From: a virus
Direction: 5' to 3' (one strand)
Length of the DNA: 27,790 nucleotides
Virus record (IMG/VR): IMGVR_UViG_3300021373_002725
Location: 1 to 27,790 of that record
Part shown: positions 1,005 to 23,507 of the stretch, piece by piece
How the letters are laid out: each line of letters opens with the position of its first letter
Numbering within the stretch: position 1 is the stretch's first letter
Notes under the pieces: generated by a model
Database searches by the model: none
Seen by the model: only the letters and a program-made list of their open reading frames with translations
What the model was told of the DNA's origin: nothing
Position numbers and translations under genes: made by a program

Positions 1005-1014
1005 GGCAGAATAG
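1005..1014 (+). promoter_or_regulatory. Recurrent gene-start motif (GGCAGAATAG)
   Basis: Copy of the GGMADACTAG motif with C7 replaced by A, directly after a terminator and 32 bases before the hli ATG. A late promoter is the most economical reading. Confidence 0.5.
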
Positions 1015-1036
1015 CAAGATTTGATTCCTACTTAAA

Positions 1037-1141
1037 ATGGAAAATGCGGAAAAGCTAAACGGTCGCCTAGCGATGCTTGGTATCGTTGCTGCATTGGGAG
1101 CCTATGCCGTAACAGGTCAAATCATTCCTGGAGTCTTCTGA
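1037..1141 (+). CDS. hli: High-light-inducible protein (chlorophyll-binding, single helix)
   Basis: This 34-residue protein carries the Hli/CAB signature: ENAEKLNGRLAMLG contains the conserved ExxNGRxAMxG, in which Glu, Asn and Arg are the chlorophyll ligand and salt-bridge positions. A single hydrophobic helix follows (residues 12-30), ending IIPGVF. Hli proteins are thylakoid proteins that bind chlorophyll and protect photosystem II or newly made D1 under light stress. Cyanophages commonly carry them together with psbA, as here. The stop codon overlaps the next start (TGATG) by one base, so it leads a tightly packed cluster. No Shine-Dalgarno sequence precedes the ATG. Confidence 0.93.
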   Translation: MENAEKLNGRLAMLGIVAALGAYAVTGQIIPGVF

Positions 1142-1209
1142 TGCCACAAGGTAAAGGAACATACGGCACAAAAAAAGGTCGTCCACCTAAGAAAGGCACA
1201 AAGAAGTAG
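1141..1209 (+). CDS. Very small basic protein, 22 residues
   Basis: The ORF overlaps the hli stop by one base. The product is lysine- and glycine-rich, with GRPPKK resembling the AT-hook core GRP, which suggests nucleic-acid binding but does not prove it. I recall similar short peptides beginning MPxGKGTYG in other cyanophages, always unassigned. It is too short for domain analysis; the tight coupling to hli and the recurring pattern are the main grounds for calling it. Confidence 0.65.
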   Translation: MPQGKGTYGTKKGRPPKKGTKK

Positions 1210-1211
1210 AA

Positions 1212-1340
1212 ATGGGTAATTCACCAGTCGATAAGAGCAAGGACTTCATCAAGTCTGGGATGACTCTTGTCACAGAATATAACTCAGAGAAACACTTAAA
1301 GAAAAAAGGCGTCAACAAGTATAAACAAGAGCAAAAGTAA
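1212..1340 (+). CDS. Hypothetical small protein, 42 residues
   Basis: The ORF starts two bases after the previous stop. The product is hydrophilic, with a lysine-rich C-terminal third (KHLKKKGVNKYKQEQK) likely to be helical. No family is recognised and there is no membrane segment. The unbroken packing with its neighbours supports a real gene. Confidence 0.6.
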   Translation: MGNSPVDKSKDFIKSGMTLVTEYNSEKHLKKKGVNKYKQEQK

Positions 1341-1344
1341 GACA

Positions 1345-1431
1345 ATGAATCCAATCTTACTGGCCATGAGTATATTGATATTGAACGCCATCTTTTTTAT
1401 CAGCCTTCAAGATGACAACAGTAAGGATTGA
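1345..1431 (+). CDS. Small single-span membrane peptide, 28 residues
   Basis: Residues 3-21 (PILLAMSILILNAIFFISL) form one hydrophobic helix, followed by a short acidic tail QDDNSKD. This looks like a tiny inner- or thylakoid-membrane peptide. It starts four bases after the previous stop and overlaps the next gene by 20 bases in another frame. Function unknown. Confidence 0.55.
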   Translation: MNPILLAMSILILNAIFFISLQDDNSKD

Positions 1432-1558
1432 GATTGTTAAGCATGCCAACTATTATTATTGGCTGGTTGACTACGGTGCAGGACATAACATCGAAGGTTT
1501 TGCTGAGACATTACAGCAGGCAATGAAAGAAATAATGCAGTATGAAGATGGGGTATAG
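1412..1558 (+). CDS. Hypothetical protein, 48 residues
   Basis: The product begins TVRIEIVKHANYYYWLVDYG, which looks like a beta hairpin rich in tyrosine, and continues into a helix (AETLQQAMKEIMQYED). No family recognised. It overlaps the end of the preceding membrane peptide by 20 bases, an arrangement typical of compact phage early or accessory clusters. It is followed at once by a copy of the recurrent motif at 1559. Confidence 0.65.
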   Translation: MTTVRIEIVKHANYYYWLVDYGAGHNIEGFAETLQQAMKEIMQYEDGV

Positions 1559-1568
1559 GGTAGACTAG
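1559..1568 (+). promoter_or_regulatory. Recurrent gene-start motif (GGTAGACTAG)
   Basis: Nine of ten positions fit GGMADACTAG. It starts on the base after the stop of the 1412 gene and lies 69 bases before the next ATG, farther than most copies because two hairpins intervene. Confidence 0.4.
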
Positions 1569-1578
1569 AGTACGTTCA

Positions 1579-1622
1579 CCTCCTCTGGAGGCGGAAGTAA
1601 GACAACGCGGAACGGACCGTTC
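1579..1622 (+). other. Two adjacent inverted repeats in a gene leader
   Basis: CCTCC/GGAGG (1579-1583 with 1587-1591, loop TCT) and GAACGG/CCGTTC (1610-1615 with 1617-1622) lie between the motif at 1559 and the ATG at 1628. Neither is followed by a T tract, so they are more likely leader structure or a protein-binding site than terminators. Confidence 0.4.
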
Positions 1623-1627
1623 ATTCC

Positions 1628-1789
1628 ATGTTGGAATTCTTGATTGCATCTAGCATCACCTGTTCGCAGGCTAAAGATGTTATTTACCGTGTATGGATCC
1701 ATCCAGATCTAACTGACCTTGTAAAAGAGGAAATAGTCACGGAACTGAAGAACGCATCAGATTGCGACTGGAACGCACACGTTGACTGA
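1628..1789 (+). CDS. Hypothetical protein, 53 residues (small cyanophage family)
   Basis: The N-terminus MLEFLIASSITCSQAKDVI looks like a short hydrophobic helix followed by a cysteine and a polar helix. I recall short proteins of this pattern (hydrophobic start, then TCxxA) in many marine cyanophages and some picocyanobacteria, without known function. It could be a truncated signal-like or membrane-anchored peptide. It has its own leader with two hairpins and a copy of the recurrent motif. Confidence 0.65.
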   Translation: MLEFLIASSITCSQAKDVIYRVWIHPDLTDLVKEEIVTELKNASDCDWNAHVD

Positions 1790-1836
1790 AGGAACGCGCT
1801 TTTAGTGTAAAATTCACTGCAAGCGGAGCTTTCATC

Positions 1837-1989
1837 ATGTCTATCGCAACATACAGAGGTGTCAAGTATGACACCAAAAATGTCATGGAAAAATCTAAAG
1901 ACTGGAAGATGTCTTTAGAGCAAAAACATCTTGATAACTTTAAGTATCGAGGTGTTACATACAAATGGGAGGGACAAAATAATGTCTGA
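1837..1989 (+). CDS. DUF4278-like small protein, 50 residues
   Basis: The product contains two copies of the YRGVxY motif, YRGVKYD near residue 6 and YRGVTYK near residue 39. This is the hallmark of the DUF4278 family of short cyanobacterial and cyanophage proteins of unknown function. GGAG at 1825-1828 lies at suitable spacing before the ATG. The stop overlaps the following start (AATGTCTGA), so the two are probably translated together. Family call is good; role unknown. Confidence 0.8.
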   Translation: MSIATYRGVKYDTKNVMEKSKDWKMSLEQKHLDNFKYRGVTYKWEGQNNV

Positions 1990-2092
1990 ACTCCTGTTAA
2001 TCCAGAAAAAACTAAAGAAAAAGAACAAACAAAAAGCTTTATCGTTCGTGCGATTTAAGCAAGCAATGAGTAAGAAAAAACTCAAGGCATAA
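1982..2092 (+). CDS. Very basic small protein, 36 residues
   Basis: The ORF overlaps the end of the DUF4278-like gene by eight bases. About a third of the residues are lysine or arginine, in runs such as KKLKKKNKQK and SKKKLK, so nucleic-acid or membrane-surface binding is possible. No family is recognised. It is the last gene of the rightward cluster before the bidirectional terminator. Confidence 0.5.
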   Translation: MSELLLIQKKLKKKNKQKALSFVRFKQAMSKKKLKA

Positions 2093-2132
2093 AAAAAGGG
2101 CTAGCCAGAATAACTGGTTAGCCCCTTCTTTA
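2091..2132. terminator. Bidirectional terminator
   Basis: GGGCTAGCCAG (2098-2108) pairs with CTGGTTAGCCC (2114-2124), ten of eleven positions, around a five-base loop. It has seven A on the left, which become a T run for the minus strand, and a T-rich right flank. It can stop both the rightward small-gene cluster and the leftward beta-barrel gene. Confidence 0.85.
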
Positions 2133-2143
2133 TGCAGTGAAGA

Positions 2144-2512
2144 TCAGAAGTTGTACTTCACACCCACTTTTGTTCCGTAGCTGGTGTCAGCACCATCAAC
2201 ACCGCCGGCAAAGCTGATTTCGCCGTAGAGGTTGAGGTTCTCAGAAGCATTAACACCAATGCCGACCTTGCCCGTAGGAACGGTTTCAGTTGGGCCATTG
2301 TCAATGGAAATGATGCCAGCGCCACCTTGTGCATACCAGCTAGCAGATTTACCGATGCTGCCTTCGTAACCCAGATGCAGATCTGTCGCGGTTCCTGCAT
2401 AATTTGAGCCAGAGAAACCTGAATTGGCTTCCACGTTGGCGTAGGGGCCAGCAATTGCACCAGCAGGTGCCAGGGCAGCTGCAGCAGCGAAGGCAAGAGT
2501 GGTTTTAATCAT
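2144..2512 (-). CDS. Secreted outer-membrane beta-barrel-like protein, 122 residues
   Basis: The N-terminus is a clear signal peptide (MIKTTLAFAAAAALAPAGAIAG, cleavage likely after AIA near residue 21). The rest consists of alternating, glycine-rich amphipathic strands and ends in KYNF, a terminal aromatic residue typical of outer-membrane barrels. I recall homologues in many marine T4-like cyanophages, sometimes labelled porin or outer-membrane protein. At about 100 mature residues it could form a small barrel alone or oligomerise. It is the only non-endonuclease gene on the minus strand, with its own terminator at 2091-2132. The ATG at 2512 is chosen over an upstream in-frame start near 2671 because the signal peptide begins there. 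Confidence 0.85.
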   Translation of the reverse strand: MIKTTLAFAAAAALAPAGAIAGPYANVEANSGFSGSNYAGTATDLHLGYEGSIGKSASWYAQGGAGIISIDNGPTETVPTGKVGIGVNASENLNLYGEISFAGGVDGADTSYGTKVGVKYNF

Positions 2513-2576
2513 TGTAAACTCAAGAAAGGGACTAACGCGAAGATTGCTCGCATAATCAATATACCTAGACAGACCG

Positions 2577-2586
2577 GAATACTGGG
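2577..2586 (+). promoter_or_regulatory. Recurrent gene-start motif (GGAATACTGG)
   Basis: Nine of ten positions fit GGMADACTAG. It lies in the divergent gap between the beta-barrel gene and the rightward gene, 40 bases before the ATG at 2617. Confidence 0.4.
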
Positions 2587-2616
2587 GTACCATTTGGGAC
2601 AGTAATACGAGTGGGC

Positions 2617-2751
2617 ATGACCAAGCAGCGGAAGAAACTTTTGAAACTAATGGAAAAGGCTGCGAAATCAATTAGCAATGAAGAATCTAAAGAAATTATT
2701 AAGAAATTAAAAAGAGCAGGCAGGAAATATGGCCAATGTTCGGAAATCTAA
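2617..2751 (+). CDS. Hypothetical basic helical protein, 44 residues
   Basis: The product is a lysine-rich peptide predicted to be almost entirely helical (KKLLKLMEKAAKSI, then ESKEIIKKLKRAGRKYG). No family recognised. It reads into the structural operon, since the next start is 19 bases after its stop. Alternative starts are not obvious; only weak ribosome-binding sequence (GTGGG) precedes the ATG. Confidence 0.55.
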   Translation: MTKQRKKLLKLMEKAAKSISNEESKEIIKKLKRAGRKYGQCSEI

Positions 2752-2769
2752 GCTAGTCATTTAGTGTTC

Positions 2770-3270
2770 ATGGCTAGTCCGTTACTGGCATATTTTAACG
2801 GGCGGATCAAAGCCACGACGCAAAACACTGTAACGATTACTAATGGCCGTCCAGTTAAGTCTGGTGGCACGGAATACGTCGTCAAGTGTTATATAAAAAG
2901 AATTCAATATACCGGCGTAACCAGTGGATCTAAGCCATTGCCATTGGCATCACAGCTAGAAGGAAGGATGCTTCCCGGTGCCAGCGGCGATCAGTTTTAC
3001 TATCGAGGCTATGCCCTTCAGAAAGCCCCTCTAGGGGCCTACAACTGGCTAGGAGACCTAAGTGGTCTTACCTTCACAAACATCACGGCACAGGAGCTGT
3101 TCCTGCTGCCTGGTAGCGAAGTTGAGTTCAAGCTGGGAAACGATCCAACAATGCAAGCCATTGTTCAACGTTCCAGCGGAGTATTTGGTGGTGATGGGAT
3201 TGATGAAATTATTTACCCAGCCATCGGTGGTGTTGAGATTCAGCTGACAGGTTCTGATATTCAAAACTAA
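2770..3270 (+). CDS. Probable head-tail connector or head-closure protein, 166 residues
   Basis: The protein has no motif I can name with confidence. It is beta-rich, without membrane segments, and contains a central aromatic loop (GDQFYYRGYAL) and a C-terminal stretch GGVEIQLTGSDIQN. It is coupled to the next gene, an HK97-gp10-like tail-completion protein, by a TAATG overlap, which places it at the stopper or connector position of a siphovirus neck operon. ATG 2770 is preferred to GTG 2764 because the 14 bases before it (2753-2766) are repeated before the start of the 21575 gene at almost the same distance. A minor structural role of another kind is possible. Confidence 0.6.
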   Translation: MASPLLAYFNGRIKATTQNTVTITNGRPVKSGGTEYVVKCYIKRIQYTGVTSGSKPLPLASQLEGRMLPGASGDQFYYRGYALQKAPLGAYNWLGDLSGLTFTNITAQELFLLPGSEVEFKLGNDPTMQAIVQRSSGVFGGDGIDEIIYPAIGGVEIQLTGSDIQN

Positions 3271-3827
3271 TGCCGAGAAAGCAAGTAAAATCCAAAGGAG
3301 CAGTAGTATTAAAAAATTTAATTAAGTCAATGAATGACTTAGAAAGAGAGAACGGCAATATCAAAGGTGTTATTAAGTTAAAATCATCAGCAGACTTTAC
3401 TGACTACAGAACGCTTACTACTAAATTTCCAGATGCTGCCAAGGTCGCGCATGGGAAGGCACTAGCCATTGTTGCTAATGAGCTATATATTGCTTTTGGC
3501 TTGGCTATGGAAGCACCTGTTTGGCAATGGGATTTTGGCGATGGAGATATTATTGATACCGGCGACCTGCGGGATTCGCTAAATATTGTAGTTACACCAG
3601 AAGGTCTTCAAGTTATTTACACCGAAGAATATGCTGCTTATGTTTACTATGGGGCTTACATTAATCCATACGGAAATCCAAATGTCAAGATCTACATGCC
3701 GCCAAGGCCATGGATCAAGGCTGTATTAATGGGTGGAGGCCCCGTTGAGAAATTTGATCTGACAGGAACCTATAGACGTAATTTTGAAGTATTCATGAAG
3801 CAAGAATTACCTAATTTAAAATTCTGA
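3270..3827 (+). CDS. HK97 gp10-like tail completion / neck protein, 185 residues
   Basis: The central block carries the characteristic order of this family: DTGDLRDSL (an arginine-containing loop before a strand), then EYAAYVYYGAY, then PPRPWI near residue 145. Family members join the head to the tail or complete the tail at its head-proximal end. The N-terminal 60 residues are lysine-rich and probably helical. The start codon overlaps the upstream stop (TAATG), giving translational coupling. Length is in the usual range for the family. Exact equivalence to lambda Z or to HK97 gp10 is not determined. Confidence 0.75.
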   Translation: MPRKQVKSKGAVVLKNLIKSMNDLERENGNIKGVIKLKSSADFTDYRTLTTKFPDAAKVAHGKALAIVANELYIAFGLAMEAPVWQWDFGDGDIIDTGDLRDSLNIVVTPEGLQVIYTEEYAAYVYYGAYINPYGNPNVKIYMPPRPWIKAVLMGGGPVEKFDLTGTYRRNFEVFMKQELPNLKF

Positions 3828-3829
3828 TA

Positions 3830-3839
3830 GGCAACCTAT
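3830..3839 (+). promoter_or_regulatory. Recurrent gene-start motif, weaker copy (GGCAACCTAT)
   Basis: The core differs from GGMADACTAG at two or three positions, but it lies 28 bases before the ATG at 3858 and resembles the copy at 23498. A perfect palindrome, ATCAGCTGAT, sits between it and the ATG. Confidence 0.3.
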
Positions 3840-3857
3840 GCCGCTTATCAGCTGATC

Positions 3858-4412
3858 ATGGCAGTTTTACCTTTTGTTATTCAACCGAAAAAAAATACCG
3901 AAATTATTAAAATTGGTGACGAACAGATTGGTGTTTTTGAAATTGAACGCAAAGGCTACCTGACTGTTGCAGAAAAATCCTTTGTTGAAAATGTCACGCA
4001 AGGATCTGACGGAGTTTCTTCTTTAGTACTTCTGGCAAATAAAGTAGCAGCAGCTCATAAGACGACCCCAGAAAAAGCATACATGGCTATTACGGAGGCT
4101 ATGTCTGGCAACAACAAGTCTAAGTTAGCTCAAGTTATTTCAAGTGATTATTCAGAGGAATTATCTTTTGCAACCACGCGAATGGCAGAATCCATGCAGC
4201 GCCGTCAGATCGCAGCAGCAACTATCTTGTTGCAGACTAGAATTAATCATGAGTGGAGTATCCAAGACACCTTGGAACTCGACCCAATGCTTGTGCAACA
4301 ATTGACAGATCTTTACGACAGAGAAGAACAGCGTGAATCGATTGAGCCTGTAAGCAAAGAAGAAGAGGCTAAGCATATTGTGGGAAAGTCACCAGAGGAG
4401 AGTGGGGCATAA
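3858..4412 (+). CDS. Tail assembly chaperone, G-like protein, 184 residues
   Basis: This is the zero-frame product of a lambda G/GT-type pair. The N-terminus (FVIQPKKNTEIIKIGDEQIG) and an alpha-helical body with a glutamate-rich end (REEQRESIEPVSKEEEAKH) are consistent with tail chaperones, which bind the tape measure protein and recruit tube subunits. The strongest evidence is the slippery heptamer G GGA AAG in the correct frame eight codons before the stop, with a long open -1 frame continuing to 5017. It lies between neck genes and the tail tube and tape measure genes. Starting at ATG 3858, it has no Shine-Dalgarno sequence. Confidence 0.8.
   Translation: MAVLPFVIQPKKNTEIIKIGDEQIGVFEIERKGYLTVAEKSFVENVTQGSDGVSSLVLLANKVAAAHKTTPEKAYMAITEAMSGNNKSKLAQVISSDYSEELSFATTRMAESMQRRQIAAATILLQTRINHEWSIQDTLELDPMLVQQLTDLYDREEQRESIEPVSKEEEAKHIVGKSPEESGA
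4382..4388 (+). other. Programmed -1 ribosomal frameshift site (G GGA AAG)
   Basis: The zero frame reads GTG GGA AAG TCA, so GGGAAAG is phased exactly as the lambda G/GT slippery sequence. After slippage the -1 frame reads on without a stop to 5017. Twelve bases downstream a hairpin can form between AGTGGGG (4401-4407) and CCCCGTT (4416-4422), including G-T pairs, with the zero-frame stop TAA in its loop; it may stimulate slippage. Confidence 0.85.
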
Positions 4413-5017
4413 TTACCCCGTTTGAGACAATATTTTGGGATCTGAAGTCGTTATATCCTGGTGATAATGAATTTAGTTTTGACAATTATAGTTCTTTGCC
4501 TTACGAATATGTAATCGATGCATATCAAAATGGATCACGACAACGACAATCTTATTTACATCAGTTAGAGGCACCTGTCTCACTGCTCAGTGCTTTATTT
4601 GCTAATTCAAATAGAGACGCTAAAAAGCAAAAAGTTCCACACAAGATGGAAGACTTTTTCTTGTACCAGCCAGTTGATGACAGAAATACTCCGACAGGAG
4701 TTTACGGTGCCGCTGCAATGGAACTCATAGAGCAACAGTTATTCCCTCGATGGGCGTATTGCTTTTATAAGGATCTTAAAAATTCTTCAACAGGTAACCC
4801 TCCTAACTTGTTAGGTCTGATTCATGAAAAAGCTATAATACTAGGACCAGAAATTACAGAAAATTCCGTCAAGGGAATGTTGATTATGGAGGACGTAGTA
4901 TCTGAGCAGACGATCGAAATGGAATCGACTCTCGGTGGCATTATTAAAGTAACAATGCCAAAGGCGACTATACGTTACAGTGCAAAAGAAGGCGTTGAAG
5001 TTCCTATTGCTGCATGA
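4388..5017 (+). CDS. T-like extension of the tail chaperone, made as a -1 frameshift fusion
   Basis: This frame is open from the slippery site and has no ATG in its first part. The coding signal continues well upstream of the TTG at 4496: codons from about 4409 read IITPFETIFWDLKSLYPG, a sensible protein sequence. The fusion (3858-4388 read in zero frame, then -1 from 4388) would be 386 residues, 177 from the G part and 209 from the T part. In siphoviruses the long form coats the tape measure and is needed in small amounts relative to G. The 3' end overlaps the convergent HNH gene by 14 bases. Calling it as a free 173-residue protein from TTG 4496 would be wrong in my reading. Confidence 0.8.
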   Translation, partial: VTRGEWGIITPFETIFWDLKSLYPGDNEFSFDNYSSLPYEYVIDAYQNGSRQRQSYLHQLEAPVSLLSALFANSNRDAKKQKVPHKMEDFFLYQPVDDRNTPTGVYGAAAMELIEQQLFPRWAYCFYKDLKNSSTGNPPNLLGLIHEKAIILGPEITENSVKGMLIMEDVVSEQTIEMESTLGGIIKVTMPKATIRYSAKEGVEVPIAA

Positions 5018-5423
5018 TTGCCGCCGAGAAAGACTGACAATCAAAGACATCTCCTGAAATAGGAATGTTCTCTTTCTCAGCTTCCATCCATGCCCTAATC
5101 CTGTATTCCCGCTCCATTGAGTATGAGTTTTGATTGCGGAACCATTCAGCCCATTCTTGGCTTCCCTTTGAATGATTGCATTTCTTGCAGGCAGGGATAC
5201 AATTGCTTGTCCTATCTTCACCACCCCTTGCTCGAGGCTTGACGTGATCAAGAGTCAGTGAGGCATCGTCAATTGGTGGATTTCCGCAGTAAGCGCAGCA
5301 GTAACCCCAAGCCTCTTTGATCGATTGTCGCCAAAGGTGTTTCGCTTCTTTTCTTGTCATTGCATCTAGATTGAAAAGGTAGTCGTGGATCCTTGGTCGG
5401 ATCGGAAAATCCTTTTTAATCAT
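5004..5423 (-). CDS. HNH homing-type endonuclease, 139 residues
   Basis: The motif set is complete: a first zinc knuckle CAYC (residues 43-46), LTLDHVKPRARGG with the catalytic Asp-His at 59-60, Asn at 74, and a second knuckle CKKCN at 79-83. Such freestanding HNH enzymes cut DNA and spread by recombination between phages; others act in packaging, but those lie next to terminase, which is not here. It is on the strand opposite its neighbours and its 3' end overlaps the chaperone gene by 14 bases, which suggests insertion at the chaperone-tail terminator junction. ATG 5423 is taken; an internal ATG at residue 22 is an alternative start that keeps the whole domain. Confidence 0.9.
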   Translation of the reverse strand: MIKKDFPIRPRIHDYLFNLDAMTRKEAKHLWRQSIKEAWGYCCAYCGNPPIDDASLTLDHVKPRARGGEDRTSNCIPACKKCNHSKGSQEWAEWFRNQNSYSMEREYRIRAWMEAEKENIPISGDVFDCQSFSAAIMQQ

Positions 5424-5432
5424 CGAGTTCTA

Positions 5433-5498
5433 ATGACAATGACTCCGCTTGAGTATGAGGCATCTGGGCTTCTCATGAGCACCTTCGCGGCTGTCTAA
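5433..5498 (+). CDS. Possible 21-residue leader peptide
   Basis: ATG 5433 opens a short frame reading MTMTPLEYEASGLLMSTFAAV. It lies in the gap between the HNH start and the next rightward gene, and the recurrent motif follows it at 5518. Nothing but its tidy start and stop supports it. Confidence 0.2.
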   Translation: MTMTPLEYEASGLLMSTFAAV

Positions 5499-5517
5499 TC
5501 TATAGTTCCTTAAATTG

Positions 5518-5527
5518 GGCAGACTAA
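5518..5527 (+). promoter_or_regulatory. Recurrent gene-start motif (GGCAGACTAA)
   Basis: Nine of ten positions fit GGMADACTAG, 31 bases before the ATG at 5549. A perfect six-pair hairpin, AACACG/CGTGTT (5528-5545), separates it from the start codon. Confidence 0.5.
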
Positions 5528-5548
5528 AACACGGTTTTTCGTGTTCCG

Positions 5549-6010
5549 ATGGCGCAAACTTTTGCCACGACACCGCAGATTATTTATAATGTCCTAGCCA
5601 ATGACAGTAGCTTTTCTTCATACATAGGAAGCTATAGTTTTACTGGCGGAAGCACGAGTCCATCGATTGTTATTTTAACTCCTGGAGAAACTCTTCCACA
5701 GTTAGAATCACAGGTAGGTCTAGAATGCATAATTCATGATTCTGGTGACATTAGTCGCAAGGATTATATAAATGATAATTCTGACCTGCTAACTACTTGG
5801 AAAGTATTTTTAATTGTATGGGATGGATCAACAGGGAGTGACTTGGACTCCGCTGCTAAACGTGCTTTGCATCTATTTTATGGCAGTACATCTATCGAGA
5901 CTTTATCGGTCTCTAAAGGTCTTGGTGCTCGCGTTCAGACGATGATTATGATTCCTGAGAATGGTGGTTTGCATGCAGATGCAACAGCAATCTTAGATTC
6001 CTTACCTTAA
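5549..6010 (+). CDS. Probable tail terminator protein, 153 residues
   Basis: Size, position just before the major tail tube gene, and the alternating alpha/beta pattern (N-terminal helix TPQIIYNVLANDSSF, central strands TTWKVFLIVWDG, C-terminal helix and IMIPENGG strand) fit lambda U-like tail terminators, which cap the head-proximal end of the finished tube. No single diagnostic motif is visible, so the call rests largely on context. The gene has no Shine-Dalgarno sequence but carries a hairpin directly before its ATG. It is followed by a terminator-like hairpin at 6084-6104. Confidence 0.6.
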   Translation: MAQTFATTPQIIYNVLANDSSFSSYIGSYSFTGGSTSPSIVILTPGETLPQLESQVGLECIIHDSGDISRKDYINDNSDLLTTWKVFLIVWDGSTGSDLDSAAKRALHLFYGSTSIETLSVSKGLGARVQTMIMIPENGGLHADATAILDSLP

Positions 6011-6083
6011 AAGCTTGTTATTGCAGGCATTTTTACTGCAAGTGAATAAATAGTATTCCAGACCATTAGGAACCCTACGATAG

Positions 6084-6104
6084 TGGGGTGAATCCCCCAT
6101 TTTT
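6084..6104 (+). terminator. Rho-independent terminator before the tail tube gene
   Basis: TGGGG (6084-6088) pairs with CCCCA (6095-6099) around a six-base loop, followed by five T. It separates the tail-terminator gene from the tail tube gene and argues against translation starting at 6088. Confidence 0.65.
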
Positions 6105-6135
6105 GCTCAGTTTTCAGCATTCTGGAAATTCACCC

Positions 6136-6783: not shown

Positions 6784-6807
6784 TATTAACTTAAAAAGCC
6801 TCAAATG

Positions 6808-6829: not shown

Positions 6830-6832
6830 CTT

Positions 6833-6842
6833 GGCAGACTAT
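6833..6842 (+). promoter_or_regulatory. Recurrent gene-start motif (GGCAGACTAT)
   Basis: Nine of ten positions fit GGMADACTAG, four bases after a terminator T tract and 34 bases before the tape measure ATG. Confidence 0.5.
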
Positions 6843-6866
6843 TTTAGCTAATTCTAGTATCAAGCA

Positions 6867-14687: not shown

Positions 14688-14697
14688 GGAATACTAC
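14688..14697 (+). promoter_or_regulatory. Recurrent gene-start motif (GGAATACTAC)
   Basis: Nine of ten positions fit GGMADACTAG. It begins two bases after the stop of the tail-tip gene and 27 bases before the next ATG. The hairpin TTGAAT/ATTCAA (14699-14715) then runs into the A of the start codon. Confidence 0.5.
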
Positions 14698-15385: not shown

Positions 15386-15386
15386 A

Positions 15387-16239: not shown

Positions 16240-16249
16240 GGAATACTAG
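16240..16249 (+). promoter_or_regulatory. Recurrent gene-start motif (GGAATACTAG)
   Basis: Full match to GGMADACTAG, identical to the copy at 22334, 31 bases before the GTG start at 16271. Confidence 0.55.
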
Positions 16250-18259: not shown

Positions 18260-18261
18260 TA

Positions 18262-18271
18262 GGAACACTAG
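18262..18271 (+). promoter_or_regulatory. Recurrent gene-start motif (GGAACACTAG)
   Basis: Matches GGMADACTAG except C at position 5. It begins two bases after the fibre stop and 42 bases before the scaffold ATG. Confidence 0.5.
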
Positions 18272-18282
18272 CCCGTCTATTT

Positions 18283-18300
18283 AGGGAGTGATTCCCTTTT
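18283..18300 (+). other. Hairpin with T tract just before the scaffold start
   Basis: AGGGA (18283-18287) pairs with TCCCT (18293-18297), followed by T residues; the ATG is at 18304. It may be a weak terminator or attenuator, or 5' leader structure of the scaffold mRNA. Confidence 0.45.
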
Positions 18301-18303
18301 ACC

Positions 18304-19041
18304 ATGTCTGAAGAAAACACCAAAGCCTCCGAGATGGAGACTGGCGGCCAAGAACTCACACCACAGGTCAGTGCTGAGGATAAATCTCAGTACAGTCCAG
18401 ATGAGGTCGCTAATCTCGTTAAAGCATTGCGTTCTGAACGGGAAGCTCGTAAGACCTATGAGCGTCAATACAAAGACAAAGAACAGCAACTTCTAAAGCT
18501 AAAAGACGTTGATCTAGACCGTTACCAACAATTAGAGGCTGATGCTGCTCGTGCTGCTGAGATTGAATCACGTTATGGTGAAACAATTCAAGCTATCGAA
18601 GAAAAATATGGACGGCAAACAGCAGAGGCTGAAGGTAAAGCCAAGCAAGCTGAAACCCAAATCAACGAATTTAAGAAGCGTTATGCTCTTGAAAAAGTAT
18701 TTACTTCAGCTGGTGGACGAACTGATTCTGCCGACGGCGTATCTTTTTTCGACATGTTCGCAGAACAAATGAGTAAGCGGTTCAGGCAAGAGCCAAACGG
18801 CAGTATTACTGTCGTTGATGAACAAGGCGATCCTATTCTTGATAGCGAATCAGGCAAGCGAATCTCGCCTGAAGACTTTGTAAGTAGCTACAAGACGCAT
18901 CCTGTTTATGGAACTTTCTTTAAAGGAGTCAAAGGTTCAGGAGCTGGATTAAATTACGCTGGAACAGATGCAAACGGTATGCCAGTAGAAGACTTATCGT
19001 CTCTGTCAAGGGAAGAATTATTCCTAAAGGCATTTGGATAA
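18304..19041 (+). CDS. Capsid scaffolding protein, 245 residues
   Basis: The N-terminus is acidic and disordered (residues 1-35), followed by a long charged coiled coil (about 38-130: LRSEREARKTYERQYKDKEQ, then EEKYGRQTAEAEGKAKQ), with a smaller C-terminal domain. This is the classic layout of phage scaffolding proteins. It lies directly before the major capsid gene. Scaffolds fill the procapsid during assembly and leave before packaging. A terminator at 19049-19068 separates it from the capsid gene, allowing different expression levels. Confidence 0.85.
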   Translation: MSEENTKASEMETGGQELTPQVSAEDKSQYSPDEVANLVKALRSEREARKTYERQYKDKEQQLLKLKDVDLDRYQQLEADAARAAEIESRYGETIQAIEEKYGRQTAEAEGKAKQAETQINEFKKRYALEKVFTSAGGRTDSADGVSFFDMFAEQMSKRFRQEPNGSITVVDEQGDPILDSESGKRISPEDFVSSYKTHPVYGTFFKGVKGSGAGLNYAGTDANGMPVEDLSSLSREELFLKAFG

Positions 19042-19048
19042 ATCTTTC

Positions 19049-19068
19049 GCCCCGAAAGGGGCTTTTTT
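19049..19068 (+). terminator. Rho-independent terminator (GAAA loop)
   Basis: GCCCC/GGGGC around a GAAA tetraloop followed by six T. It ends the scaffold transcript. Confidence 0.92.
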
Positions 19069-19072
19069 ATTG

Positions 19073-19082
19073 GGAAGAATAG
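19073..19082 (+). promoter_or_regulatory. Recurrent gene-start motif (GGAAGAATAG)
   Basis: Nine of ten positions fit GGMADACTAG (A at position 7), four bases after the terminator T tract. It would start the long leader of the capsid gene. Confidence 0.45.
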
Positions 19083-19218
19083 AAGTTTCGGAATTATATG
19101 TTAGAAAGCACCCGGTTTTGACTGGCCGTGATGGTTAGCAGGCAGGGTGTTCGAGTTAGAGCGTGATGCTCTGGACACGTTTCACCTTTCCTCCATTAAC
19201 CACAGGAGTTTAATTCTA
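19083..19218 (+). promoter_or_regulatory. Long capsid-gene leader with hairpin and ribosome-binding site
   Basis: About 135 bases without a plausible gene precede the capsid ATG, far longer than other gaps here. The hairpin AGAGC/GCTCT (19158-19172) and a strong Shine-Dalgarno sequence, AGGAG (19204-19208), are visible. CACCC (from about 19109) can pair with GGGTG (19145-19149). A structured, stabilising 5' leader for an abundant mRNA is the likely reading. Confidence 0.5.
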
Positions 19219-20121
19219 ATGGCTTTAAATCTATCCGAGGCTAAAAAGCACTCTCGGAATCCACAAGAACTGGCAGTTGTCACAGAACTAGCTGCTGGTC
19301 CTCTGCTGAGCGTTCTCCCTTTCCGCGACATTCAAGGCAACGGCCTTTTCTGGAAGCGTGAAGAGAGCCTCGGAGACGTGGGTTTCCGTAATTACAACGC
19401 TAACTACACCGAAAGCTACGCTGAGGTAAGTCAGCAGTCTGAAAGCCTTCGTCTGTTCGGCGGAGACATCAAAATTGACCGCGCAATCCTTGATTTGGAA
19501 GGTGGCGAGTCACGCGCTTATCAGGTTCAATCCAAGACCCGCGCAATGCGTCTTTCTTGGGAATCCCTGTTCATCAATGGCGACTCTAACCAGTCCCCTT
19601 CTGAGTTCGATGGCTTGGCTGCTCGCATGCCGGCGGCTGATCACGCAACTAATTCTCAAGTTATTCGTAACGCTTCTAGCGCCGCGACTCTTGACTTAGG
19701 TGCTCTTGATGAAGCAATCGACTCTGTTGATGCACAAGGCGGCACTAAGTACTTGGTTATGTCCAAGTCTGCACGTCGTGCTCTGACAACCAAGGCTCGC
19801 GCTTCTGCTCAAATCGACATTGCTCGTAACGAGTTCGGCTATCAGCAGATGGTTTATGCCGGTCTGCCTGTTATTGAGCTTGATCGTGACCATCAGAACG
19901 CTGCAATCCTTGATTCCACCCCTGCTGATCAATCGATCTATGTGGTGACCTTCGGCAATGACCTGCTGACTGGTATTCAGAACGGTGGCATCCAGGTTCG
20001 TGACTTGGGCGAGAGCACTGCTTCTCCTCAAATCATCGTTCGTGTTGAGTGGTATTGCGGATTGGCCATGGTCAATGGTCGCTCTGCTGCTCGCCTGACT
20101 AACGTCAACGCAACTGTCTGA
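19219..20121 (+). CDS. Major capsid protein, 300 residues
   Basis: The gene follows the scaffold gene, is bracketed by two strong terminators, and uses only CGN codons for arginine, marking very high expression. The sequence pattern fits an HK97-fold coat protein: N-terminal helix, then LLSVLPFRDIQGNGLFWKRE, a central helix region with AILDLEGGESRAY, and C-terminal strands ending GLAMVNGRSAARLTNVNATV. LPFxxIxGN followed by a capsid-type body is a pattern I recall from a family of siphovirus and podovirus coat proteins. The ATG at 19219 has AGGAG ten bases upstream; the upstream in-frame GTG at 19147 is rejected because it would translate the leader hairpin. Confidence 0.88.
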   Translation: MALNLSEAKKHSRNPQELAVVTELAAGPLLSVLPFRDIQGNGLFWKREESLGDVGFRNYNANYTESYAEVSQQSESLRLFGGDIKIDRAILDLEGGESRAYQVQSKTRAMRLSWESLFINGDSNQSPSEFDGLAARMPAADHATNSQVIRNASSAATLDLGALDEAIDSVDAQGGTKYLVMSKSARRALTTKARASAQIDIARNEFGYQQMVYAGLPVIELDRDHQNAAILDSTPADQSIYVVTFGNDLLTGIQNGGIQVRDLGESTASPQIIVRVEWYCGLAMVNGRSAARLTNVNATV

Positions 20122-20151
20122 TTCTTCTTTCTAGAAAATCAACAATACAAA

Positions 20152-20171
20152 GGGGCTTCGGCCCCTTTTTT
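20152..20171 (+). terminator. Rho-independent terminator (TTCG loop)
   Basis: GGGGC/GCCCC around a TTCG tetraloop, followed by six T, after the capsid gene. Confidence 0.93.
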
Positions 20172-20212
20172 ATGTAATTGGGATCCTATTACAGACCAAG
20201 TTGCTAACAGTT

Positions 20213-20221
20213 GAGCACTAG
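20213..20221 (+). promoter_or_regulatory. Recurrent gene-start motif, weaker copy (GAGCACTAG)
   Basis: Shares the CACTAG end of the copy at 18262 and lies 35 bases before the ATG at 20248. A second partial match, GGGATCCTAT, begins at 20180, closer to the terminator. Confidence 0.3.
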
Positions 20222-20247
20222 GTTTTTAAAATTTTTAGGTATTTATC

Positions 20248-20598
20248 ATGGCCGCACGTTCTACGGGAATGTTTCCCCGCGAAAAGTTTGACATTGACGC
20301 TAATTTTCTTGTCACTGCAAGTGACACGACCCCTGGCGTAACTCTTGCTAACATCAAGACCATCCGCGTTGGTCTTGTTAACACGACAATCACTGGCGAT
20401 GCTACTGTTGTTTTCAACATTGGTGGCCAGGACGTTACTTTTACTGCTAACGACTTCGACAAAAATGGCACTGCTATTGCTCACCTCCGTGGTGCTTTGT
20501 GCGATGCAGACAACCTCGTCAAGTACACCGCCACTGCTGGTTCCGGTACGGTTTCGGTAGGCACTGCTTTCCTCGATACAGTCGATAACGTAGGTTGA
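20248..20598 (+). CDS. Possible capsid decoration or head protein, 116 residues
   Basis: No family is recognised. The product is small, beta-rich and low in charge (KTIRVGLVNTTITGDATVVF, then GTVSVGTAFLDTV). It follows the capsid gene, is alone between terminators at 20152-20171 and 20620-20646, and uses only CGT/CGC for arginine. These features together suggest an abundant virion protein such as a decoration protein. This is inference from context and codon use; a head fibre base or other structural role is possible. Confidence 0.6.
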   Translation: MAARSTGMFPREKFDIDANFLVTASDTTPGVTLANIKTIRVGLVNTTITGDATVVFNIGGQDVTFTANDFDKNGTAIAHLRGALCDADNLVKYTATAGSGTVSVGTAFLDTVDNVG

Positions 20599-20619
20599 TT
20601 TAACAACATACGGAATAAT

Positions 20620-20646
20620 AAGGGTGGCTAAGGTCACCCTTTTTTT
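20620..20646 (+). terminator. Rho-independent terminator
   Basis: AGGGTG (20621-20626) pairs with CACCCT (20635-20640) around an eight-base loop, followed by T to 20646. The next ATG lies only four bases beyond the T tract, so that gene depends on read-through. Confidence 0.85.
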
Positions 20647-20649
20647 GTT

Positions 20650-20889
20650 ATGCATTTATCAAAGCTCCCCACAATCTTCGTTAAGGGTGGCGAAGAACGC
20701 AAAGCGTTTTTTACTATCCAAGCAAAAGAGCTTATTGCCGCTGGATGGGTTGAAAAAGGAACTGAAGAAAAAGTTGCTGAGCCTATTGTTAAAGCAAAAG
20801 AAGAACCTAAAGCTGTTGTGGAAGAGCCTAAGGTCGAAGAGAAGCCTAAAGCACGTCGTGTAACCAAAAAGAAAGTTGAGGAATCATGA
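20650..20889 (+). CDS. Small protein with charged Lys/Glu/Pro tail, 79 residues
   Basis: The first 35 residues form a compact unit (LSKLPTIFVKGGEERKAFF, then IQAKELIAAGWVEKG) reminiscent of short adaptor segments in cyanophage structural genes. The rest is a low-complexity tail of repeated KxEEPKxVVEEPKV type ending in basic residues (KARRVTKKKVEES). Function unknown. The gene begins right after the terminator at 20620-20646 and overlaps the next start by four bases (ATGA). Confidence 0.7.
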   Translation: MHLSKLPTIFVKGGEERKAFFTIQAKELIAAGWVEKGTEEKVAEPIVKAKEEPKAVVEEPKVEEKPKARRVTKKKVEES

Positions 20890-21071
20890 ACGATGAAGTC
20901 CTTTATGTAAAGGGTCCGCGATACCTTGATGGTGTCAATCTTGATGCTGACATCATTTCGGCTGAACCAAAGATTATTCGCCGGCAGGTAAGTGATCCTG
21001 TAAACGATGGAAGTCTTGGCAAGCCTACATATGTTCCAGGCTCAAAAAACCTAGACGGCACACCCCTTTGA
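20886..21071 (+). CDS. Hypothetical protein, 61 residues
   Basis: The ORF overlaps the previous stop by four bases with GAGGA just upstream. The product has a short internal echo, RYLDGVNLDAD near the start and KNLDGTPL at the end, and contains KPTYVPGS. No family or membrane segment is recognised. It belongs to the cluster of small genes after the capsid, probably minor virion or assembly proteins. Confidence 0.6.
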   Translation: MNDEVLYVKGPRYLDGVNLDADIISAEPKIIRRQVSDPVNDGSLGKPTYVPGSKNLDGTPL

Positions 21072-21078
21072 TAAAAGC

Positions 21079-21088
21079 GGAAGACTAC
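21079..21088 (+). promoter_or_regulatory. Recurrent gene-start motif (GGAAGACTAC)
   Basis: Nine of ten positions fit GGMADACTAG, 31 bases before the ATG at 21110. Confidence 0.5.
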
Positions 21089-21109
21089 TGAGAACTGCAT
21101 GGGCAAGTA

Positions 21110-21265
21110 ATGGCAATGCCTCTTTCTATTGCCAAAAGTCTTGGCAAGTCCAAAGCTAAAAAGAGCAAAGTAATTAGCGAGTATGGCGGCAAAGTATCGC
21201 CTGCCAAGAAAAAACCTTTTAATGGTGCAACTAATCGTTTAAGGAGGAAAAAGAGTGGCCGCTAA
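21110..21265 (+). CDS. Very basic small protein, 51 residues
   Basis: The product is lysine- and arginine-rich along its whole length (KSLGKSKAKKSKV, then RLRRKKSGR) and is probably unstructured and nucleic-acid binding. Its 3' end overlaps the next gene by 11 bases and contains that gene's ribosome-binding site. ATG 21116 is an alternative start two codons in. No family recognised. Confidence 0.6.
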   Translation: MAMPLSIAKSLGKSKAKKSKVISEYGGKVSPAKKKPFNGATNRLRRKKSGR

Positions 21266-21548
21266 AGGACGCACCGCCAAATTTTACGCTAGCAATCCTG
21301 AAGCGTATAAGAAGAAACTTGCTTATGATAAAAAACGGAATGAGAAGCCAGCACAAAAGAAATACCGGGCGGAGCTAGCTAGAGAACGCAGAGCTAGAGG
21401 TGTTATGGGTAAAGGTGGTAAGGATGTAAGTCATACTGCTGCCGGCAGATTCAAGATGGAAAACCCAAAAAGTAATAGGGCAAGAAATGGTCATGGCAAA
21501 AACGGTAGACTTGCTCCAGGTAAAGGCACTAAGAAATCTAAGCGGTAG
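21255..21548 (+). CDS. Basic protein, 97 residues, unknown marine-phage family
   Basis: Translation starts at GTG 21255 with a perfect GGAGG at 21243-21247. The product is highly basic, with GRTAKFYASNPEAYKKKLAY at the N-terminus, a helical RAELARERRARGVMGKGGKD segment, then a glycine/lysine-rich tail (KNGRLAPGKGTKKSKR). I recall similar proteins in marine phages, sometimes near endonucleases, with no proven role. The charge suggests DNA or RNA binding, perhaps a packaged internal protein. It overlaps the preceding basic gene, so the two are co-translated. Confidence 0.72.
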   Translation: MAAKGRTAKFYASNPEAYKKKLAYDKKRNEKPAQKKYRAELARERRARGVMGKGGKDVSHTAAGRFKMENPKSNRARNGHGKNGRLAPGKGTKKSKR

Positions 21549-21557
21549 GCAGACTAG
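21548..21557 (+). promoter_or_regulatory. Recurrent gene-start motif (GGCAGACTAG)
   Basis: Full match to GGMADACTAG, 27 bases before the ATG at 21575. It overlaps the palindrome GACTAGCCTAGTC. The 14-mer CTAGTCATTTAGTG after it (21559-21572) is identical to 2753-2766. Confidence 0.55.
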
Positions 21558-21574
21558 CCTAGTCATTTAGTGCA

Positions 21575-22333
21575 ATGGCGGTAAGGATAACCTCTGCAGA
21601 ATCAATCAAGCAGGCTATTCTTGCTGATGTTTTACTGCGTGAAATATTTGTAAAAGTACAAGTCAATCAAACTGGTTTAGCACCTATTGCCTTGGGGCCA
21701 AGTGTTGGTATTCTTGGAATTCCTTTAATTAGCGATTTTGAGGCGACTTGGAAACTAACAATCATTGGCTTAACTAATACAGAATCAAAGCAGGTCGCAG
21801 ATTCACTTGAAAGAATATTTATTGGAGCATCGTTTAAGTTTTCTAATAACGACATTCAGGTTAGTATTTTTTCGCTGGCAACAAGGGAAGTTTTAGAATC
21901 TGCAGAAGAACAAGAAAAGTTAAAGAAAGATGCACAGCGATCAAAGAATCTTGAGAAGGCAATTGAATATGCGGAGAATCTAAAAAGCGGTATTGATGGC
22001 CAAAAAGGTATCCAGGGTATTGCAGGAGCGAAAGGAGAGACTGGACTTCAAGGGCCGCCAGGAAGAGATGGGCAAGATCTTATTGCTACTGAAGCTGAAT
22101 TACATGACTTAAAAGATGTTTTTGTTCCAGATCCAAGGGTTGGGCAGGTATTGACATGGGATGGAGCAAGTTGGATTTCATTGTTTGTCCCTCAAACATA
22201 TAGATACGCGGGGAGTGGAATTGAGGAAGCACCTAATGACGGTAATTATTATGTACGCCAAAACAAGGCTTGGATTCTACTTTCTGAAGCATTAGGCAAT
22301 ACAGGTATCGAATCAGGAGATTTTGATCCCTAA
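21575..22333 (+). CDS. Structural protein with collagen-like segment, 252 residues
   Basis: Residues 1-110 form an alpha/beta domain of unknown family. Residues 110-138 are a charged helix (EEQEKLKKDAQRSKNLEKA), and about 138-169 is a run of Gly-X-Y triplets (GQKGIQGIAGAKGETG, GPPGRDGQD) that can trimerise. The C-terminal domain includes VGQVLTWDGASWI, a motif recurring in cyanophage fibres. A trimeric fibre or tail accessory protein attached through its N-terminus is likely. The gene opens the fibre block and has a motif copy but no Shine-Dalgarno sequence. Confidence 0.8.
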   Translation: MAVRITSAESIKQAILADVLLREIFVKVQVNQTGLAPIALGPSVGILGIPLISDFEATWKLTIIGLTNTESKQVADSLERIFIGASFKFSNNDIQVSIFSLATREVLESAEEQEKLKKDAQRSKNLEKAIEYAENLKSGIDGQKGIQGIAGAKGETGLQGPPGRDGQDLIATEAELHDLKDVFVPDPRVGQVLTWDGASWISLFVPQTYRYAGSGIEEAPNDGNYYVRQNKAWILLSEALGNTGIESGDFDP

Positions 22334-22343
22334 GGAATACTAG
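22334..22343 (+). promoter_or_regulatory. Recurrent gene-start motif (GGAATACTAG)
   Basis: Full match to GGMADACTAG, beginning on the base after the stop of the collagen-like gene and 28 bases before the ATG at 22362. Confidence 0.55.
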
Positions 22344-22361
22344 TCTAGCATTTTTACGTCG

Positions 22362-23495
22362 ATGCCAACCCCCGCTAATCGTGCAAAGATACAGCTGGCA
22401 AGGGGTTCGTTCAGCAATATTTCTGCTAGTCTTTCTGATCTACTTGATGGAGAGCTTTGCTACGCAAAAGATGAGAATAGACTTTATATGGTTGAGGGTA
22501 CAACCCTTACACCAGTCATAGCAGAAGACGATGATGTTTTAGTCGAAGTACATAATCAATCTGGTTCAGACATTGCAAAAGGCAAACCTGTTTATGTCAG
22601 CGGGACTCATAACTCAGGTAAGCCAATTGTTGCATTAGCTGATAATGATGGATCAGGAACTTACCCAGCAATCGGGCTTGTTTATGAAACTATTACCAAT
22701 GGCGCAGACGGCAAAGTAATTATTAGCGGCCTACTCACACATATTAGCACCAGCACACTAGGTAATGCTGGAGACCCTGTATATATTGATTCTACTGCTG
22801 GCGGTTTAACTACAACAAGACCTACTGCTGCGACAGAAAAAGTACAAAAAGTAGGATTAATCACAAGATCTCATGCCTCGAATGGCACTATTTTAATTAT
22901 TGGCGCTGGACGTACAAACGATATTAACAATGAACTAGTTGCATTAACAGGTGTCAGTTTAAATGCTACTAATTTAGGAACGTTTACTGGATTAACAATT
23001 CCAGATAACCAAGACATCAAGAATGCACTGCAAGCATTAGAAACCAAAGCAGAAACTGCGATTGTTGATGCTGACATCTCAGCAACAGCTGAAATTGCTG
23101 TTAGCAAATTAGCAAATGGCACTGTAAATCAAGTACTGGTTACTGACGGCACAGATGTTAGCTGGTCTGATAATTTAACGATTGCCGGTAATCTTACAGT
23201 TTCCGGTACGACTACTACTATTGATTCACAGACTCTTACTATTGAAGATAAAAATATTGAGCTTGCAAAAGTCACAACCCCAACAGATGTTACTGCCGAC
23301 GGCGGTGGTATCACTCTAAAAGGTGCAACCGACAAAACAATCAATTGGATTGATGCAACTGATGCGTGGACATTTAGTGAACATATCAATATTGCAGATA
23401 CAAAAGAATACAGAATGAATGGAACAGCTGTTTTAACTTATTCTGGATCAGATAAGATTCTTGATAACGTTACTGTTGACGGTGGCACGTACTGA
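22362..23495 (+). CDS. Tail fibre-like virion protein, 377 residues
   Basis: The N-terminus (AKIQLARGSFSNIS, then LLDGELCYAKDENRLYMVEG) is a variant of the short fibre module seen in the 16271 and 23560 genes. The middle (IAKGKPVYVSGTHNSGKPI, DGKVIISGLLTHIST) is a beta domain that I associate with capsid- or fibre-attached proteins. The C-terminal part (NLTVSGTTTTIDSQTLTIED, then GGGITLKGATDKTINW) is a repeat-like block very common in cyanophage fibres. It has a motif copy 28 bases upstream and no Shine-Dalgarno sequence. Confidence 0.83.
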   Translation: MPTPANRAKIQLARGSFSNISASLSDLLDGELCYAKDENRLYMVEGTTLTPVIAEDDDVLVEVHNQSGSDIAKGKPVYVSGTHNSGKPIVALADNDGSGTYPAIGLVYETITNGADGKVIISGLLTHISTSTLGNAGDPVYIDSTAGGLTTTRPTAATEKVQKVGLITRSHASNGTILIIGAGRTNDINNELVALTGVSLNATNLGTFTGLTIPDNQDIKNALQALETKAETAIVDADISATAEIAVSKLANGTVNQVLVTDGTDVSWSDNLTIAGNLTVSGTTTTIDSQTLTIEDKNIELAKVTTPTDVTADGGGITLKGATDKTINWIDATDAWTFSEHINIADTKEYRMNGTAVLTYSGSDKILDNVTVDGGTY

Positions 23496-23497
23496 TC

Positions 23498-23507
23498 GGT
23501 AACCTAG
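23498..23507 (+). promoter_or_regulatory. Recurrent gene-start motif, weaker copy (GGTAACCTAG)
   Basis: Seven to eight of ten positions fit GGMADACTAG. It lies two bases after the fibre stop but 62 bases before the next ATG, with palindromes in between. Confidence 0.3.

Follow-up and report, generated by a model that had tools for sequence, protein, structure and literature searches.

We analysed a DNA of 27,790 bases, the IMG/VR virus record IMGVR_UViG_3300021373_002725 (this whole stretch is hereafter the window), in which variants of a 10-base motif, GGMADACTAG, precede many genes. An earlier reading of the letters alone (the sequence-only reading) had taken the motif for a phage-specific late promoter element, and our data support this: the motif is enriched upstream of genes in ten genomes, is biased towards the virion module of the cyanosiphovirus S-CBS2, is followed by a purine at the predicted start point, has no -35 element, and is absent upstream of genes in five cyanophages outside the family. 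On these sequence data the motif is very probably a promoter, and a sigma factor encoded by relatives of the window, sigB-phi (sigB), probably reads it. Taken as the whole explanation, a late promoter served by the host core polymerase together with the phage's SigF-like sigB is the likely account.

In the model we propose, the late promoter would consist of one element, with GG at -14/-13, a -10 hexamer [A/C/T]-A-N-[A/C]-C-T and then A-6. The RNA would be made by the host polymerase core carrying the phage-encoded SigF-like sigB, a pairing that we infer. Region 2 of sigB would flip out A-11 and T-7 and region 3 would read the GG, and the missing common -35 element would be explained by the unrecognised region 4 in sigB. 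With the element repeated before many virion genes, the late region would be read as many transcription units, some beginning right after a terminator. Their 5' leaders would mostly be short (~13-20 nucleotides (nt)), and those of the scaffold and capsid genes would be longer and structured.

The motif is enriched upstream of genes in the window and its relatives

The major capsid gene of the window has 72-73% DNA identity to those of the cyanosiphoviruses S-CBS2, S-CRES1 and S-CRES3 over ~840 bases, and the families among the window's proteins include tail, scaffold and major capsid. We kept 80 loci with a related capsid gene, of which 30 were used for the pattern upstream of the capsid gene and 29, plus the window, for the hairpin count; the loci omitted were near-duplicates, had too little upstream DNA or were surplus to need. 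Nine large relatives of 61-84 kb, including S-CBS2, were analysed whole, and one of them, G001, is a near-twin of the window (major capsid protein 99.7% identical). Several of the related records are fragments, and two (G009 and G028) stayed outside all tests. Gene starts came from a simple in-house predictor, which missed several small genes of the window, except for S-CBS2, where the deposited annotation was used.

The raw count of GGMADACTAG in the window, at up to two mismatches on both strands, is 83 against 104 expected, and 100 of 100 shuffles reach 83. Because this count is not above chance, the test must be positional: the signal is one of position and strand. Exact matches number three on the forward strand and none on the reverse strand, and the reversed pattern has none. 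A de novo search of 30 upstream regions of the window returned GG[A/C]AN-A-[C/A]-TA as the best motif, with a log-likelihood of 48.0 compared with at most 39.1 in 15 dinucleotide shuffles searched with equal effort. With another gene list the values were 53.3 and at most 41.8 (10 shuffles).

We extended this search to 20 sequences, comprising the window, the nine large relatives, S-CRES1, S-CRES3 and eight more distant records that carry sigB, each compared with 10 dinucleotide shuffles at the same search effort as the real data. Nineteen of the 20 beat all 10 of their shuffles, and 16 of the 20 best motifs show the core GG-[A/C/T]-A-N-[A/C]-C-T-A (that of G005 only as GGaA....A). It also emerges in G007, where the equal-effort run settled on another motif (62.9) and a longer run gave the core at 90.5. 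A leave-one-genome-out matrix, built for the window and its near-twin without both, found 420 matches in ten sequences, of which 185 lie upstream of a gene in its sense, against 15 expected by length, and 25 lie upstream in antisense. In all ten, the real matrix outdoes every one of 50 column-permuted matrices. The sequence-only reading had asked for a comparison with shuffled sequence and for one with related phages; both were run, and in both the motif held up.

Upstream-sense matches make up 27 of 48 in S-CRES1 and 26 of 40 in S-CRES3. The five cyanophages outside the family gave none: 0/11 in S-CBS4, 0/1 in S-CBS1, 0/10 in KBS-S-2A, 0/7 in Syn5 and 0/28 in S-PM2, where the scan covered 50,000 of 69,420 bases of S-CBS4 and 50,000 of 196,280 bases of S-PM2.

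The element resembles a -10 promoter and precedes virion genes

Alignment of 171 sites from nine genomes gave, in per cent, [T 51, A 27][A 45, T 26]-GG-[A 50, C 32, T 18]-A-N-[A 56, C 35]-C82-T-A99-[G 39, A 30]. This is a -10-like layout, with GG at -14/-13, A-11 and T-7 if the hexamer is placed at -12 to -7. As the sequence-only reading had stated, the sites share no -35 box: across the 171 aligned sites no printed position upstream of -2 rises above 0.07 bits. Thirteen bases after the first G a purine stands in 142 of 180 sites, where the local background frequency is 0.505 (p 5e-15); for +14 the figure is 125 of 180. If the hexamer occupies -12 to -7, the expected start points fall on this purine peak, and we predict that transcription starts at the purine 13-14 bases after the first G.

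The annotated genome of S-CBS2 shows which genes carry the element. Scanned with a matrix built without S-CBS2, it has the element at most 80 nt upstream of 24 of 43 virion-module genes versus 4 of 59 others (Fisher p 4.6e-8). We delimited the module as all genes on the plus strand from 5.9 to 42.7 kb, among them hypothetical, HNH and hli genes. The four genes outside the module encode the small terminase, the portal, ribonucleotide reductase and an exonuclease. Among the 19 module genes that have no element, 12 begin at most 36 nt after the stop codon of the gene before them; the element of the capsid gene lies 134 nt upstream, beyond the 80-nt limit. The distance from element to start is 27-34 nt for 18 of the 28 genes. 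Each large relative would have roughly 16-25 units with predicted start points.

Relatives of the window encode a SigF-like sigma factor

Two genes for sigma factors occur in these phages, sigA-phi (sigA; S-CBS2 gp061) and sigB (S-CBS2 gp077, S-CRES1 gp20, S-CRES3 gp21). In the annotated genomes sigB lies between the genes for the large terminase and the primase. S-CRES1, S-CRES3 and eight of the nine large relatives have it; the record of the ninth, G010, stops ~5 kb past sigA. The copies are 53-73% identical to that of the near-twin. Five of five sigB proteins belong to PHROG 36098, RNA polymerase sigma factor (E 1.2e-72 to 5.7e-119), an entry that gives no promoter or regulon. In the search for relatives of sigB an alignment search kept 80 of 82 loci and a single-sequence search kept 6. 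One homologue (L346) lies in the metagenome bin 'Proteobacteria bacterium UBA4457', likely on a misbinned phage contig; this is one locus, found with narrow patterns in a scan of a genome collection.

The best NCBIfam model for sigB is SigF in three of three proteins (E 5e-22 to 8e-24, model positions 30-189 of 258), with a score far under the curated cut-off for a full member. A profile search of the PDB with sigB placed SigB, FliA and the sigma factor of entry 1l0o among the best rows, and over regions 2 and 3 sigB is homologous to the group 3 factors SigF, SigB and FliA. The best profile rows stop at residues 128-138 and some lower rows extend to 176-184; no Pfam region-4 match was found in three of three proteins. 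The structure model has a sound region 2, which superposes on 8b3z (Z 11.9, root-mean-square deviation 1.9, 77 residues), followed by region-3 helices, a linker and a C-terminal domain of uncertain affinity; the three helices of this domain align to some full sigma factors in structural comparison. The DNA-binding stretch from 2.3 to 3.0 changes little across 38 members, in keeping with a single constant promoter core.

The other factor, sigA, is RpoD-like and occurs in nine of nine large relatives, at 25-38% identity to the copy of the near-twin. Its region 2 passes the Pfam cut-off in nine of nine and its region 4 in three of nine, and its structure model, made with 6 sequences, reaches a mean predicted local distance difference test score of 74.5. 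In S-CBS2 and S-CRES1 the gene adjoins that for the single-strand-binding protein, in the replication part of the genome.

Motif and sigB occur together and may have changed together

Eighteen records have a sigA-like or a sigB gene, nine of them matching sigB, and 13 were tested for the motif (eight of the nine with sigB and five of the nine without). All eight sigB records lie above the expected 0.2-2.2 upstream-sense matches, with 7/8 in G011, 5/5 in G012, 9/26 in G015, 6/19 in G016, 18/52 in G024, 13/26 in G025, 22/51 in G026 and 24/63 in G027. The five that have a related sigma gene only gave 3, 7, 1, 0 and 0, against 2.7, 4.5, 0.4, 0.4 and 0.2 expected. S-CBS4, S-CBS1, KBS-S-2A, Syn5 and S-PM2 have no sigB match in the parts searched.

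Two of the sigB records, G011 and G012, read KFSTYAVPVIRGELLHYVRDHSYLLRLSHRMRE where the sigB stretch is usually KFSSLAVPTIRGELLHWIRDRTYAMRLTHKMRE. Their de novo motif is (C)CGGAAcCCT, with scores of 135.0 and 166.8 compared with at most 80.9 and 69.3 in shuffles. Searched from a neutral seed, G stands at -6 in 47% (G011) and 62% (G012) of sites, mostly with C at -9, whereas S-CRES3, of similar GC content (0.58), retains A-6 in 85%. By these letters, the motif has drifted in the two records in which sigB is altered.

A number of observations weigh against the explanation that we propose. Neither sigma gene lies in the window; both are seen in its near-twin. The seed from which the site matrix was built favoured GG, A-11 and T-7, so that their near-100% values are partly by construction; neither the purine peak nor the lack of information upstream depends on that seed, and seedless runs yield the same core. 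In the de novo searches the score of G015, whose motif shows the core, is reached by one of its 10 shuffles, G016 gave a different motif and that of G025 is only partly alike. With the common matrix G011 and G012 have 7 and 5 matches, fewer than the 10 and 7 reached by the best among 60 permuted matrices, and the 6 of G016 are just over the 5 reached there. Region 2 of sigB scores 15.3-19.7 against a Pfam cut-off of 24 in three of three proteins, the modelled C-terminal helices may be what is left of region 4, and the S-CBS2 frame seems shortened by a frameshift (record 56832-57564), the last 43 residues of its relatives continuing there in another frame. Because G011 and G012 are closely alike, they count as one event at most. 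The same sigB stretch also differs in G015, G016 and G024 (PYIRGSILHY or PYTRGAILHY) with the usual motif letters mostly kept (A-6 in 89-100%; in G016 only 36% with a neutral seed, 11 sites). Not every change in the stretch would therefore matter, and only those particular to G011 and G012 could. Finally, sigB and the motif may merely share descent, their presence and absence not being independent of phylogeny, and since an RpoD-like second sigma is present in all nine large relatives, co-occurrence there does not choose between the two factors.

Known systems and alternative explanations

Late promoters of the T4 type are read by the phage sigma factor gp55 with the host core, have no -35 element and serve many late units. 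Their motif is TATAAATA, which is not that of the element described here. A tblastn search with gp55 of S-PM2 (E 0.01) found S-PM2 alone among 19 related records and 2 controls, where a far relative could be missed. The same records, several of them fragments, were searched by tblastn with the RNA polymerase of Syn5 and yielded Syn5 alone.

The closest match is a host promoter. The sequence-only reading knew of no named cyanophage promoter with this sequence, and our search of open-licence literature agrees; what it did not have is that a near-identical host promoter, the J-Box, is published (PMC6495340). There the J-Box of Nostoc punctiforme SigJ is GGGaAtacT, an extended -10 with a conserved G trio and a weak -35, in which A and T hardly vary; where SigJ is missing, SigF is proposed as its reader (PMC6495340). 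The phage element shares its register, the G run directly upstream of an aAtacT-like -10, the near-invariant A and T (partly seed-favoured in the phage sites, with seedless motifs in agreement) and the weak or missing -35. Unlike the J-Box, it seldom has a third G beside its two, carries an additional A-6, precedes virion genes and is proposed to be read by a phage-borne sigma factor that has no recognised region 4.

A comparable phage system is that of phiEco32, in which gp36, a factor with no region-4 homology, reads a single -10-like element, tAATGTAtA, at middle and late promoters, with the start 6-8 bp downstream (PMC8948821). The element described here likewise is one -10-like element with no -35, and its predicted starts lie 5-6 bases past the core. 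The consensus and the hosts differ, and gp36 and sigB are likened by description, not by sequence. Elsewhere among cyanophages, the late promoters of the Microcystis phage Ma-LMM01 are reported as SigA-like (PMC5780444), and the other sigma factor of S-CBS2, its RpoD, is reported in a review to have altered growth and metabolism when expressed in Synechococcus elongatus (PMC10452541).

The likeness to the J-Box raises the possibility that the promoters are read by the host's own SigF/SigJ-type sigma factor, the late genes borrowing a host regulon. Register, near-invariant A and T and weak -35 all speak for it (PMC6495340), but the J-Box is described with a conserved G trio, and a G precedes the GG in just 11 of 180 phage sites. 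The drift of the motif in G011 and G012, which share a particular sigB change, also argues against a host reader, as does the lack of the motif upstream of genes in the five cyanophages recorded from Synechococcus hosts that have no sigB match where searched. Furthermore, 14 Prochlorococcus strains and one Synechococcus strain, which may differ from the hosts concerned here, are reported to have sigma factors of the A.1 family only (PMC11119718). We consider host reading quite unlikely. That sigA reads the late promoters, with sigB having another task, we regard as unlikely; it would fit the presence of sigA in all nine large relatives and its Pfam scores (region 2 in nine of nine, region 4 in three), but sigA diverges to 25-38% identity while the motif core is constant, the five records with a related sigma and no sigB match have no clear enrichment, and its place beside the single-strand-binding protein gene fits an earlier role.

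Two further explanations are much less probable. The spacing of 27-34 nt before most starts is what a processing or translation signal in the mRNA might give, but three copies follow directly after terminators and the distance grows to 42-146 nt before the scaffold and capsid genes; together with the -10 architecture, the start-point purine and the host look-alike, this makes an RNA-level signal very improbable. Reading by the host primary sigma factor, with the element as an extended -10 promoter, would draw on A-11 and T-7, which are common to ordinary -10 elements. The element does not, however, have the features of an ordinary housekeeping promoter (a TTGACA-like -35, T at -12): T stands at -12 in a minority of sites (18%) and immediately before the GG in 26%, no -35 is seen, and the element was not seen upstream of genes in the five other cyanophages. 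We regard this explanation as extremely improbable.

The late promoter read by host core polymerase with sigB is thus the reading we prefer. Judged by the literature we consulted, the kind of system is known, and the pairing of sigB with the motif, the SigF/SigJ likeness and the motif itself appear new. In the open-licence literature that we searched we found no account of the way cyanosiphoviruses turn on their late genes, with subscription papers, including the original S-CBS2 genome paper, lying outside that scope. The gain is a promoter consensus, predicted starts and a named candidate sigma factor, which make the question directly testable in vitro. It would also provide a natural sigma-promoter pair in which the evolution of -10 specificity can be studied, and possibly a minimal promoter for cyanobacterial use.

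Hairpins in the leaders of head genes

Upstream of the capsid gene, 28 of 30 relatives have GG.A...TA between -123 and -155, with a structured leader after it. In 23 of 30 non-identical capsid leaders there are two hairpins with a GNGAY loop (51 hairpins; mononucleotide shuffles gave a mean of 0.84 and a maximum of 4), and their stems, judged by eye, vary between phages yet stay paired. Among permuted loop patterns one coincides with GNGAY itself, so the maximum of 41 in that comparison is no control. Within -140 to +60 of the start such a hairpin was found for 15/16 capsid, 15/16 scaffold, 8/17 portal and 6/17 small terminase genes, compared with 0/12 tape-measure, 1/16 major-tail and 0/18 sigB genes elsewhere and 81 of 1539 among all predicted genes. 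No Rfam match was found in five whole sources or for the capsid leader, and the consensus fold of the capsid leader is poor. GNGAY hairpins in the leaders would account for the greater distance of the scaffold and capsid promoters from their genes, and our guess is that the hairpin is a candidate translational operator for head genes.

In the window these hairpins lie at 19122-19138 and 19156-19174 in the capsid leader, and at 18283-18297 and 18327-18339 in the leader and first codons of the scaffold gene. Two elements stand in tandem at 19073-19099, 17 nt apart; a pair spaced 16-18 nt apart occurs in 13 of 30 relatives, the others having one or none.

A wider picture, which we put forward tentatively and hold rather less probable than its denial, is a two-sigma programme with an added RNA layer for head genes. 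A captured cyanobacterial SigF/SigJ-type factor, having lost the domain that reads the -35, would drive most virion genes from a minimal GG-NANNNTA promoter, set apart from the J-Box of the host by the loss of a G, with sigma factor and promoter co-evolving; the GNGAY hairpins would then set the relative output of head proteins.

Sites in the window

The 12 sites that the sequence-only reading had called close are present with at most one mismatch to GGMADACTAG, the one given at 2577 actually beginning at 2576. Its weaker sites at 3830 and 23498 hold at two mismatches, and 20213 has no match within two. By the core drawn from relatives, GG-H-A-N-N-N-T-A, the sites at 3830 and 23498 count as good ones. 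As that reading had described, nine sites have a start codon 27-34 nt downstream, and T tracts are present ahead of the copies at 1005, 6833 and 19073. All elements below are on the plus strand.

The nine predicted late promoter elements with this spacing are GGCAGAATAG (1005..1014), beside the terminator T tract and 32 nt before an hli-like open reading frame (ORF; 1037-1141); GGCAACCTAT (3830..3839), 28 nt before ATG 3858; GGCAGACTAA (5518..5527), 31 nt before ATG 5549; GGCAGACTAT (6833..6842), after a terminator and 34 nt before a long tape-measure-like ORF (6867), so labelled by place and length only; GGAATACTAC (14688..14697), 27 nt before ATG 14715; GGAATACTAG (16240..16249), 31 nt before GTG 16271; GGAAGACTAC (21079..21088), 31 nt before ATG 21110; GGCAGACTAG (21548..21557), 27 nt before ATG 21575; and a second GGAATACTAG (22334..22343), 28 nt before ATG 22362. 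Farther from their genes are the predicted elements GGAACACTAG (18262..18271), 42 nt before the scaffold gene (18304) with a hairpin in the leader, and GGTAACCTAG (23498..23507), 62 nt before ATG 23560 with an inverted repeat in the leader; the latter lies outside the 60-nt stretch used in the de novo search of the window. The tandem pair before the major capsid gene comprises the upstream copy GGAAGAATAG (19073..19082) and the downstream copy GGAATTATAT (19090..19099), 129 nt before the ATG (19219). The copy at 19090 (GGAATTATA) was absent from the list of the sequence-only reading.

Three sites are less clear. A promoter-like element, GGTAGACTAG (1559..1568), closely matches GGMADACTAG. A probable one, GGAATACTGG (2576..2585), has G instead of A as its ninth base and stands 41 nt before a small ORF at 2617. 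A possible one, GGAATAATAA (20612..20621), 38 nt before ATG 20650, is doubtful because a terminator separates it from that ATG.

The ORF at 1037-1141 has 34 codons and matches the Pfam chlorophyll-binding family at E 6e-4, just under the cut-off; the annotated hli gene of S-CBS2 is likewise preceded by the element. Part of psbA, probably its 3' end, lies at the edge of the window (1-132; the first 130 bases match), and the photosynthesis genes of the window, this part and the hli-like ORF, adjoin or belong to the late programme. On the minus strand, amid a plus-strand region, a gene at 2144-2671 matches PHROG 417 (unknown function) and looks by eye like an outer-membrane-type protein. An HNH endonuclease gene, also on the minus strand, lies at 5004-5423 between two plus-strand genes; a minus-strand HNH gene occupies a seemingly corresponding place in S-CBS2, S-CRES1 and S-CRES3.

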